From: Gemmatirosa kalamazoonensis
GTDB lineage: Bacteria; Gemmatimonadota; Gemmatimonadetes; Gemmatimonadales; Gemmatimonadaceae
NCBI RefSeq assembly: GCF_000522985.1
Contig: NZ_CP007128.1
Location: forward strand, 868,001 to 932,000
Reading direction: 5' to 3'
Length of the DNA: 64,000 nt
Part shown: positions 7,491 to 52,790 of the stretch, in pieces
Layout: every line of letters begins with the position of its first letter
How positions within the stretch are numbered: the first letter of the stretch is position 1
Notes under the pieces: generated by a model
Told to the model about the DNA's origin: nothing
Seen by the model: the letters and a program-made list of their open reading frames with translations, nothing else
Databases searched by the model: none
Translations under genes and position numbers: made by a program

Positions 7491-7913
7491 GGGGCCTCCT
7501 GATCCGGGTGAGATGCGGACCATCTTGGCCCAGGCTCTCCCGAGCGTCCAGACACTTGGGACGAAACGGCGACCTAACGGCGGGACGATCGACGGCGGGA
7601 CGATCGACGGCGGGACGATCGACGGCGGGACGATCGACGGCGGGACGAAAAACGGCGGGACGATCCACCGCGGGAAGTTCCCCGCCGTAGACGTCCCGCC
7701 GTAGACGTCCCGCCGTAGACGTCCCGCCGTAGACGTCCCGCCGTAGACGTCCCGCCGTAGACGTCCCGCCGTAGACGTCCCGCCGTAGACGTCCCGCCGT
7801 AGACGTCCCGCCGTAGACGTCCCGCCGTAGACGTCCCGCCGTAGACGTCCCGCCGTAGACGTCCCGCCGTAGACGTCCCGCCGTAGACGTCCCGCCGCAG
7901 ACATCCCGCCGTA
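7491..7913. repeat. Opposed tandem arrays of GGCGGGACG and CGTCCCGCC units
   Basis: This 423-bp gene-free stretch is almost entirely repeats. From about 7578 to 7675 a 15-bp unit (CGGCGGGACGATCGA) is repeated about six times with decay; from 7681 to 7911 a 14-bp unit (GTAGACGTCCCGCC) is repeated about 16 times, nearly without change. The shared GGCGGGACG core is inverted between the arms, so a transcript could form a very long hairpin. Units are contiguous with no unique spacers, so it is not a CRISPR array. The same core word builds the arms of the elements at 21176-21428 and 52372-52790, but the conserved 44-nt centre of those two is absent here. Confidence 0.95.
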
Positions 7914-48003: not shown

Positions 48004-48672
48004 TCAGAGCGCGTCGCCGTTCGGCATCCACGGCGCGAGCCGCTCGCGCAGCGTGCGGAGCGCCTTGCCCATCTGCGCCTCGACGGCCTTCACGGAGACG
48101 CCGAGGAGCTGCGCGATCTCGCCGTACTTGAGCCCCTGCACGCGGCTCATCTCGAACACCTGACGGCAGCGCGTGGGGAGCGCGTCGACCGCCTCGCGGA
48201 GCGCGGCCTGGATCTCCGCCTCGGCGACGCGCCCGTCGGCGGTCGGGAAGCGCTCGGACTCGCGCGCGACGAGCGGCGCGGTGCGCTCGACGATGCGGCC
48301 GTGGCGGAGGTGGTTCAGCGCCCGGTTGCGCGTCGACTGGAACAGGTACGCCTGCGGCGAGCCGTCGGGGGCGAGGTGCGCGCGGCGGCGCCACAGCTCG
48401 AGCATCACGTCCTGCACGAGCTCCTCGGCGATCGCCCGGCTGTGCACCATCGCGTCCGCCATGCGCACCAGCGGCGCGTACCACGTCCGGAAGATCTCGT
48501 CGAACGCGGTCGTGTCGTCGCGCCGCAGCCGCTCGAGGAGGCTTCGGTCGTCTTGCTCGGGTGCGGCCGGCGCGGCAGCGGACATGAAGCGCGGTGAGGG
48601 CGCGGGATCGCGCCACTGAATGGACGGCGCGACGGGCTCTGATACTCCGCGATCGGGCTCCGGGTTCGGCAT
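48004..48672 (-). CDS. ECF RNA polymerase sigma factor, FecI-like
   Basis: The 222-residue protein (from ATG 48672; a shorter start at 48585 is possible) has sigma region 2 (DDTTAFDEIFRTWYAPLVRMA, then AEELVQDVMLELWRRR) and region 4 (LPTRCRQVFEMSRVQGLKYG with EIAQLLGVSVKAVEAQMGKA), the pattern of Bacteroidetes/Gemmatimonadetes-type ECF sigma factors. It is divergent from fecR and the TonB receptor gene (34-bp gap) and should be held by that FecR and activated by the receptor. Confidence 0.93.
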   Translation of the reverse strand: MPNPEPDRGVSEPVAPSIQWRDPAPSPRFMSAAAPAAPEQDDRSLLERLRRDDTTAFDEIFRTWYAPLVRMADAMVHSRAIAEELVQDVMLELWRRRAHLAPDGSPQAYLFQSTRNRALNHLRHGRIVERTAPLVARESERFPTADGRVAEAEIQAALREAVDALPTRCRQVFEMSRVQGLKYGEIAQLLGVSVKAVEAQMGKALRTLRERLAPWMPNGDAL

Positions 48673-48706
48673 AGGGTAGTTCCCCGGATGCGGTGTATAT
48701 AGGGGC

Positions 48707-49777
48707 ATGCGCGGTCCCACCACCATCGGCGACCACTCGTCTCCCCCCGAGTGGGAGACGCTCGCCCGCTATCTCGCCGGGGAGAGCCCGGACGACGAGG
48801 CGGCGCGCGTCCGGGCGTGGCTCGACGCGCATCCCGGGGATGCGGCGCTCCTCCGCACGCTCGACGGCGCGCTCGACCGGCTCGCCGTCGCGTCGGCGAT
48901 GGAGATCGACGTCGAGGACGCGCTGCGCCAGGTGGCCGAGCGGCGCGACAACCCGGACGTGCTGCCGCTGCGCCCGCGGCCGATGCCCTCGGCGCTCCCG
49001 GCGCCCCGCTGGCGCGCGCATGGCCTGCGCGCGGCCGCGGTGCTGCTGGTCGCAGCGACGGGCGCGGTGGTGTGGCGGGCGACGCGGCGCACGGCCGACG
49101 GCGCGGCGGGGAGCGCGACGACCTACGCCACGGCCGCCGGCCGCCGCGACTCGGTGCGCCTCCCCGACGGGAGCCGCGTGGTCCTCGCGCCGGGCAGCCG
49201 CCTCGTCGTCGCGGCCGGCTACGGCGCGCCGGCGCGCGTCGTGGAGCTCACCGGCGAGGGCTACTTCGACGTGCGGCACGACGACGCGCACACGTTCACC
49301 GTGCGCGCGGCCGGTACGGTCATCCGTGACGTCGGCACGACGTTCACCGTGCGCACCGGGGACGGCAACGGCGCGCCGCGCGTGCGCGTGGCGGTGCGCA
49401 GCGGCGCGGTGCTGCTCGACGGCGACGACGACGGGGCGGCGCGCGGGGTGGTGCTGCACGAGGGAGACGTCGGCGTCGTGCAGGCCGACGGCAGCACGGT
49501 GGCGCGCCAGGGCACGTCGACGGACGACGACGTGGCGTGGACGCAGGGGCGGCTGGTGTTCCGCGAGGCACCGCTCGCCGAGGTGCGCGACGAGCTGCGG
49601 CGGTGGTACGGCATCGAGCTGCGGGTCGCCGACCCGGCGATCGCCGGCCGGCACCTCACCGCGTCGTTCGCCGGCGACTCGGCCGACCGAGTGCTGCACG
49701 TGCTCGGCCTCGCGTTAGGCGCCCGCGTCGAGCGGCGGGGAGACACGGCGGTCGTGCGGGCGGGGACGCCGCGGTGA
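48707..49777 (+). CDS. FecR-type anti-sigma regulator
   Basis: The 356-residue protein has a cytoplasmic N-terminal sigma-binding part with FecR_N-like EWETLARYLAGESPDDEAARVRAW, one membrane segment near 105-122, and a periplasmic FecR domain (VRLPDGSRVVLAPGSRL, then GEGYFDVRHDDAHTFTVRA and the C-terminal DUF4974-like domain GRLVFREAPLAEVRDELRRWYG). It transmits the state of the TonB receptor to the divergent sigma factor. The stop overlaps the GTG start of the receptor gene. Confidence 0.94.
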   Translation: MRGPTTIGDHSSPPEWETLARYLAGESPDDEAARVRAWLDAHPGDAALLRTLDGALDRLAVASAMEIDVEDALRQVAERRDNPDVLPLRPRPMPSALPAPRWRAHGLRAAAVLLVAATGAVVWRATRRTADGAAGSATTYATAAGRRDSVRLPDGSRVVLAPGSRLVVAAGYGAPARVVELTGEGYFDVRHDDAHTFTVRAAGTVIRDVGTTFTVRTGDGNGAPRVRVAVRSGAVLLDGDDDGAARGVVLHEGDVGVVQADGSTVARQGTSTDDDVAWTQGRLVFREAPLAEVRDELRRWYGIELRVADPAIAGRHLTASFAGDSADRVLHVLGLALGARVERRGDTAVVRAGTPR

Positions 49778-52358
49778 GCCGCCGGCGGGCGGCGCTCGCC
49801 GGCACGTTCGGCACGCTCGCCCTCGCGGCGGCGCGCCCGGCGACGGCGCGCGCCGCGCCGCCCGACGACCCCAGTTGCTCGGCGTCCGTGTCGCGTGCCC
49901 CGCGACGGTGGGCGGCGCCGCTCGACCGCGTGGTGAGGCTCCCGGCGCGGGCGAGCACGCTGCGCGACGCGCTCGCCCGGCTGTCGGAGGCGGCGCGCTT
50001 CCGCCTGTCGTACGCGGCCGAGCTGCTGCCGCTCGACCACCGCGTGTGCCCGCCGGCGGACGCGCTGCCGGCTGGCGACGCGCTCGTCGCGCTGCTCGGC
50101 GCCACGGCGGTGGAGCCGGTGGTCGTCGCCGACGACCAGGTGGTGCTCGCGCCGGCGGCGCCCGACGCGGCACAGACGGGGCCCGCCGCGTCGGGCCCCG
50201 CGCGCCCCGCACGCGCGGTGGGGCATCTCGCGCGCGTGCTCGTGACGGGGAGTCCGGACGCGATCGAGCGCGGGACGCCGACGGCGCGCGACGTCGTCCC
50301 CGGCAGCGACGTGGAGACGCGCGGCGGCGATGCGCTCGCGAGCGCGCTCGACGGCGTGCCCGGCGCGTGGCTCTGGTCGCGGTCGCCGACGTCGCTGCTC
50401 GCGCACTACGGCAGCCTGCGCGGCGCGAGCTCGTTCGGCGTCAGCGCGCCGAAGGTCTACGTGGACGGGGTCGAGGCGGCGAACCCGCTGCTCGTCGCCG
50501 GGCTCGCGCCGGAGACGATCGACCACGTGACGGTGCTGCGCGGGCCGCAGGGCGCGGCGCTCTACGGCGCGGACGCGATCGGCGGCGTCATCGAGGTGAC
50601 GACGCGTCACGACGGCGTGGCCGAGGACGCGCCGCGCTTCCAGATCCGGAGCGACGTCGGCCCGACGCGGAGCGACTTCGGCGCGGGCGTCATCGGCCAG
50701 CGGCACGCGCTGCTGCTGCGCGCCGGGTCGCCGACGCGCTCCGCCGGGCTCTCGGTGTCGCTCGCCTCGCTCGGCGACTTCGTGCCGAACGGGTCGAGCC
50801 GGGAGGCGTCGGCACACGGCGACGCGCGGGTCATCGGCCGCTTCGGCGCGATCGCGCTCACCGCGCGGCTGTTCGACAAGTCCGCCGGCGCCTCGCCGAG
50901 CCCGCTCCTCGCCGGCCTCGCCGCGACGGCCGGCCCGAGCGCGGGCAGCGCGGCCATGCGCTCGTGGCGCGCTGCCCCGGACGGGCGCGGCGCGTCCGCC
51001 GAGTCGCACGAGACGCTCGGGCAGTCGCCGGTGGGGGGGGCGCCCGACTCGCGCTCGACTCGACGGCGCTGCAGTCGGTGCGCGAGTACACGTTAGGCGC
51101 GACGGGCACGCTGGCGACGAGCGGGCGGTGGACGCCGCAGGCCGTCGTCGGCCTCGACGGCTACCGGCTGTCGGGCCCCGCCGCGGCGGGCGCGGGCGCG
51201 CCGTTCGTGTCGGCCGCCGACTCGGCGCTGCGCGCGGCGCGCGGCGCCGCCGACCGCCTCACGGTCCGCGTGACCGACGTGGGCCGCTTCGGCGACGACG
51301 TCGCGGCGGCGACGGTGACGCTGTCGGCCGAGCACAGCGCGCTCCGCGAGGCGACGTGGAGCGATGCCGTGCTGCCTAACGGCTCGCTCGATCCGGTGGC
51401 CGAGGCGTGGCGCCAGAGCACGGGCCTCGTCGCGCAGACGAGCGTCGCGTACCACGGCGTGCTGTTCGCCACCGGCGGCGTGCGCTTCGAGCGCGACGCG
51501 GGCTACGGCACGTCGAGCACGCTCGCGGCGCTGCCGTCGCTCGGCGTGTCGGTGGTGCGGACGCTCGGCGGCGCGACGCTGAAGCTGCGCTCCGCGTACG
51601 GCAAGGCGATCCGCCCGGCGCGCGCGACGTACGGGACGGTCGCGTCGATCCTGCCGCTGGAGGCCGAGACGCAGTCGGGGATCGAGACGGGTGCCGACCT
51701 GGCGTGGGGGCGCACGCTGTCGCTGCGCGCAACGCGCTTCGACCAACGGGTGACGAACCTCGTGCAGCCCGTGCTCGCGCTCGGGACGCCGGTGGCCGGC
51801 GCGGCGGCCGGGATCCCGACGGCGCGGCGGGCGGTGCTCGTGAACGCGGGCGAGATCGCGAACCGCGGCTGGGAGCTCGACGCGACGGCGCGCGCCGGGC
51901 GCCTGTCGTTAGGCGGCACGCTGTCGCTGGTCGACAGCCGCGTCACGCGCGTGGCCGACGGCGCGATGTCGGGCGGCGCGCTGCAGGCGGGTGATCGCAT
52001 GCTCGACGTGCCGGCGCGCACGGCGACGCTGTCGCTCGGCTGGACGGCGCCGCGGTGGTCGTTCTCGACGGGGCTCGCGCACGCGGCGGACTGGGTGGAC
52101 TACGATCGGCTGGCGCTGACGCGCGACCTGCTCGCGGGGGTGCTGGTGCAGCCGGTGGTCGGGTCGCGGCTGCGCGCCTATCGGGTGACGTACGACGGGG
52201 TGACGCGGCTGCGGGCGAGCGTGTCGCGGGAGCTGCCGCACGGGTTCGGGCTGACGGTGGCGGGGGAGAATCTGCTGGACCGCCAGCGGGGGGAGCCGGA
52301 CGACGCGACGGTGGTGCCGGGGCGGTCGGTCACGCTCGGGGTGCGGGCGCGGTTCTGA
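49774..52358 (+). pseudogene. TonB-dependent receptor with STN domain, frameshifted at a G8 tract
   Basis: Starts with GTG (overlap GTGA with fecR), signal peptide, STN domain (VVRLPARASTLRDALARLSE, about 50-125) that contacts FecR, plug domain (KVYVDGVEAANPLLVAG, VTVLRGPQGAALYGADAIGG) and beta barrel, ending with the usual aromatic Phe after RSVTLGVRARF. The frame from the start stops at 51096; the barrel continues in another frame from about 51039 to 52358. The shift falls exactly in eight G at 51033-51040, and one added G restores a single 861-residue protein. This is either an undercalled homopolymer, a real mutation, or phase variation. Confidence 0.88.
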
Positions 52359-52371
52359 CGGGGGGACGAAT

Positions 52372-52790
52372 CACGGCGGGACGCTGCACGGCGGGACGCC
52401 GCACGGCGGGACGCTGCACGGCGGGACGCCGCACGGCGGGACGCCGCACGGCGGGACGCCGCACGGCGGGACGCCGCACGGCGGGACGCCGCACGGCGGG
52501 ACGCCGCACGGCGGGACGCTGAACGGCGGGATGGATACGGCGGGACGATCGACCGCGGGACGGTCGACGGCGGGCGCGGTACCTAGGTCCCAGGGGGGCT
52601 CCCCCCCCTTCGCCCAAGGTGCTACGCGCCGCTCGAGCGGCCGTACCAATCCGACGCCGGATGGATCCCTCCGAACGCATCCCGATCCGCCCCGTGTCCA
52701 TCCCGCCCTTCGACGTCCCGCTGTCGAACGTCCCGCCGTCAGTCGTCCCGCCGTCAGTCGTCCCGCCGTCGGTCGTCCCGCCCTTTTAGT
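52372..52790. repeat. Family A element with conserved 44-nt core, copy 2
   Basis: This fills the 427-bp gap between convergent genes. Left arm 52372-52570: about 14 units of GCACGGCGGGACGCC (15 bp). Centre: 52579-52622 is the reverse complement of the 44-nt block at 21266-21309, without mismatch, then the CCGTACCAAT and GGATCC region. Right arm 52700-52790: CGTCCCGCCGTCAGT units. It can form a very long hairpin. Confidence 0.95.

Follow-up and report, generated by a model that had tools for sequence, protein, structure and literature searches.

The frame break seen in the TonB-dependent receptor gene within the window (the whole stretch of 64,000 nucleotides of Gemmatirosa kalamazoonensis analysed here, contig NZ_CP007128.1) is very probably an error of the assembly, i.e. 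a miscounted homopolymer, the receptor of the organism itself being intact. The consensus would hold one G too few at a run of eight Gs (G8), or carry an equivalent indel no more than about 20 bases away; that the miscount occurred at this particular run is what we infer, and the weights given here to an error and to a mutation at the run are our own judgement. The published genome of G. kalamazoonensis KBS708T, with a G+C content of 72.6%, was assembled from PacBio RS data alone using HGAP and Quiver, and polishing with short reads was not reported (PMC3974934). The features concerned, in the numbering of the window, are as follows:

48004..48726, minus strand: divergent ECF sigma factor gene, intact, given as the longest ORF, the true start being probably further inside (Pfam Sigma70_r2 and r4_2; TIGR02985 above cut-off)
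48707..49777, plus strand: fecR anti-sigma/sensor gene, intact (Pfam FecR 3.8e-14, FecR_C 2.6e-10); it adjoins the orthologous receptors in relatives
49774..51096, plus strand: receptor 5' part with a signal/STN-like N terminus, plug and first barrel strands (Pfam Plug 3.1e-15; 38-49% identity to intact orthologues)
51033..51040, plus strand: G8 run, site of the receptor frame change (sequence; codon-HMM switch at 51049)
51036..52358, plus strand: receptor 3' part with the rest of the beta-barrel and a C-terminal Phe, in the other frame (Pfam; 40-47% identity to intact orthologues)

The receptor gene starts with the GTG at 49774, overlapping the fecR stop by four bases (GTGA), and ends at 52358. 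The sigma factor gene and fecR are both intact, as stated in an earlier sequence-only reading of this DNA. The block of ECF sigma factor, FecR and TonB-dependent receptor recurs across the Gemmatimonadaceae, the divergent sigma gene lying beside fecR in the relatives as well, and a paralogous module, 49% identical and intact, is present elsewhere in the same genome (C2:2062833-2064191), which, with 52 barrel matches, encodes dozens of TonB receptors. The receptor would be the outer-membrane transducer of a cell-surface signalling module of the ordinary FecA/FecR/ECF-sigma type.

Read in frame 1 from the GTG, the receptor runs into a stop at 51094-51096, the remaining barrel following in another frame with the C-terminus ...VRARF. 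Pfam recognized the plug in the 5' part and, in the 3' part, positions 61-436 of 436 of the model TonB_dep_Rec_b-barrel (9.5e-19), so that the continuation of the barrel to the C-terminal Phe, as originally read, is borne out. A codon-usage hidden Markov model trained on the G. kalamazoonensis genome, and blind to the G8 run, placed the switch of the coding frame at 51049/51050, i.e. within about 10 bases of the run, with a posterior of 0.88 within 51030-51052; the likelihood peaks at 51045-51050 and at the run itself is merely 2.3-2.6 log units lower. G8 is the only homopolymer of at least five bases in 50901-51100. Both halves carry the full coding signature, with no visible decay. The coding frames do not distinguish a step that is one base short from one that is two bases long, so the original description of the gene as one G short fits as regards a missing base, but is matched by two extra ones; nor can homology pin the shift to the run, because the orthologues are unalignable over about 50 residues there. 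With regard to the N-terminal part, the plug and the early barrel were read correctly from the letters; the STN domain gave no Pfam match in the receptor at E-values up to 1, and one orthologue (L182) passes the STN cut-off narrowly (28.7 vs 28.4). A search of the PDB with the barrel half of the receptor yielded no match.

The comparison with relatives, suggested at the outset as a check, revealed that the close orthologues and paralogues each consist of a single open frame in the alignment, the same frameshift thus not being found among them. Across 17 close orthologues and paralogues (18 records), the paralogue from the same genome included, no coding sequence holds a G or C run of at least seven, and the longest run is of six. 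At the frame junction the orthologues vary in length and are unalignable; this marks the junction as a hypervariable loop between barrel strands, unique to this receptor protein. Since the orthologues have no such run and the break falls within this loop, there is no conserved tract. A scan of genome contigs retrieved one relative, from a MAG, and a search of a plasmid collection gave no match.

These observations bear directly on the proposal, made in the sequence-only reading, that the run is a switch for phase variation. Its length would change by slipped-strand mispairing, turning the receptor on and off between cells, as with the neisserial hmbR. The G8 does sit within the reading frame of a gene for a surface protein, a TonB-dependent receptor, and an intragenic poly-G tract in such a receptor is precisely the arrangement of hmbR (PMC3068627). 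Beyond the run itself, however, nothing was found in favour of the proposal: the close orthologues and the in-genome paralogue have no comparable tract, and the loop holding the tract is peculiar to this protein. The genome-wide evidence given below weighs against it further, and we regard phase variation of the receptor as very unlikely. In Gemmatimonadota we know of no such switch; if it were real here, for a TonB receptor tied to an ECF sigma factor and FecR, the control of nutrient receptors by contingency loci would extend to a phylum of free-living soil bacteria.

Frame breaks were surveyed in a sample of 1.49 Mb in total, made up of the window itself, 54 stretches picked because they hold G8/C8 runs, and 20 contiguous ones taken unselected. 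The frame model used was finally trained on seed genes; a previous version, trained on the longest stop-to-stop ORFs, learned wrong frames and was dropped, because the longest ORFs in DNA with 73% G+C are antisense. A raw count of frame changes at runs was likewise rejected: it gave too many breaks, several of the long-run cases proving on inspection to be gene junctions, since ordinary junctions with stop/start overlaps resemble breaks, and a stricter rule was therefore applied. In a control, the detector recovered 111 of 150 planted one-base deletions and 101 of 150 insertions, each with the right sign; it is without sign bias, seeing both directions about equally.

The survey yielded 19 apparent intragenic frame breaks, a number that does not translate into a genome-average rate per megabase because G8/C8 sites are over-represented in the sample. 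Seventeen of them have the same sign as the receptor (one base short or two long) and two the opposite one (binomial p = 7e-4); the unselected stretches (398 kb) contributed five, of which three share the common sign and two have the opposite one. Fifteen of the 19 lie within 30 bases of a G or C run of at least five or of a (GC)n stretch; among 4000 coding positions drawn at random, 496 do so. Runs of at least eight Gs or Cs inside genes coincide with a break in three of 12 cases, compared with 4/835 for runs of 5-7 (p = 7e-5). In addition to the G8 of the receptor, the broken long runs are a C9 in mnmE (C2:1203432; L119:5433-5441) and a C8 in the gene of a DEAD-box RNA helicase with a DbpA domain (C2:1947437; L135:9438-9445). 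The mnmE gene, the sole copy in the genome, is split between positions 3-334 and 344-447 of the 448 of the family model. Further breaks interrupt domains of a protein kinase (L103:1945), a CHAT protein (L124:6353) and a sulfate symporter (L136:18391); like those in mnmE and the helicase gene, they are likely to be assembly errors. Three other genes for TonB receptors or plug-domain proteins are broken as well, at (GC)n and not at G homopolymers (C2 about 1990455, L093:1456; about 4754886, L098:1387; C2:1334888, L122:4889); these may be assembly errors or real dinucleotide slippage. None of the other receptors scanned in this genome is broken at a long G tract.

Because the same kind of break affects unrelated housekeeping genes of an assembly built from PacBio data only, a miscounted G is far likelier than a genetic switch. 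The two broken long runs outside the receptor fall in mnmE and a helicase gene, neither of them a plausible surface switch, and the other broken receptors (C2:1.99 Mb, 4.75 Mb and 1.33 Mb) are interrupted at a different kind of repeat. It is not credible that receptor, mnmE, helicase, kinase, CHAT protein and symporter should all be phase-variable; a consensus error in all of them is. A base-calling error in a homopolymer, previously named as the main rival to the switch, is hence the explanation now favoured.

The same survey bears on the reading that a slippage mutation has recently become fixed in the sequenced culture, which would make the receptor a young pseudogene, off in this strain. 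Long G runs are genuine mutation hotspots too, those of this length being known to mutate readily, and a dispensable receptor can be lost in isolates from soil or the laboratory, and this one could be dispensable in view of the 52 barrel matches and the intact paralogous module. A near-uniform direction, 17 breaks against two, would nevertheless not be expected of independent real mutations; the type of break is shared with mnmE and other unrelated genes, and neither half of the receptor shows decay. We consider a fixed mutation unlikely, although less so than the switch. Programmed slippage of the ribosome or the RNA polymerase on the G8, by which some full-length receptor would be made from the sequence as written, is extremely improbable: the run is long, and slippage produces shifts of the required kind (a ribosomal -1 step or an additional G in the transcript), but the site is not conserved, the orthologues being single open frames devoid of the run; a site confined to one species has no rationale in a receptor, and the breaks in many other genes would demand the same explanation.

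The miscount, too, has observations standing against it. Of the 12 long intragenic G/C runs, nine keep the frame, the assembly therefore not being wrong at every long run, and many of the other breaks are located at (GC)n, where an undercalled homopolymer is not the obvious cause; the latter may have a cause other than that acting at homopolymers.

Runs of G and C are also part of a dispersed element found in this genome, in which a 15-base unit (ACGGCGGGACGNNNN), repeated in tandem, forms arrays that face inwards from both sides onto a conserved core. The core is GGTACCTAGGTCCCAGGGGGGCTCCCCCCCCTTCGCCCAAGGTGCTA-like, in either orientation, with a G/C run of 7-9 bases, and was found in this genome alone. 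The arrays matched 213 times in this genome and once in 58 related genomes; the reversed control gave no match. The sampled G8/C8 sites include about 20 copies, almost all of them located outside genes; the element is located in the window at 52366-52790, about 7578-7662 and about 21280, and further at C2:222861-223164, C2:288129-288368, C2:1375548-1376023 and other sites. Along the chromosome, G8/C8 runs are far denser at C2:1.0-1.8 Mb than at C2:3.0-4.1 Mb.

If the favoured explanation is right, the biological importance of the break is probably nil, the receptor gene being very likely intact. It calls for caution all the same, since the assembly serves as the type-strain reference in a phylum with sparse sampling; until it is polished, frame breaks at G/C repeats, that of mnmE included, will pass for pseudogenes or switches.

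Compared with the FecA-FecR-FecI modules, the locus likewise has an ECF sigma factor, a FecR protein with the domains FecR and FecR_C and an adjacent receptor of plug and barrel, whereas the sigma gene is here divergent from fecR and the STN domain weakly detectable. The hmbR gene of Neisseria meningitidis encodes a phase-variable haemoglobin receptor with a poly-G tract within the coding region (PMC3068627); both are TonB-dependent receptors with an intragenic G tract whose length sets the frame, but the variation of the hmbR tract is documented across isolates, whereas here a single sequence is at hand, the relatives are free of the tract and its site is a hypervariable loop. The closest parallels are offered by other Quiver-only assemblies. 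In Streptomyces albus SM254, with 73% G+C and a coverage of 262x, 205 indels remained after Quiver, nearly all at G or C homopolymers (PMC4832174), and 561 single-base homopolymer deletions were left after three Quiver rounds in Enterococcus faecium ATCC 700221 (PMC4888979). Although the errors there were proven with Illumina reads, while those of G. kalamazoonensis are deduced from coding frames, and although several of the latter occur at (GC)n stretches instead of homopolymers, the cases have in common the platform family, the consensus method and breaks at G/C homopolymers, those of G. kalamazoonensis being nearly all of one sign (one base missing or two extra), and the Streptomyces genome is similar in its G+C content, too.
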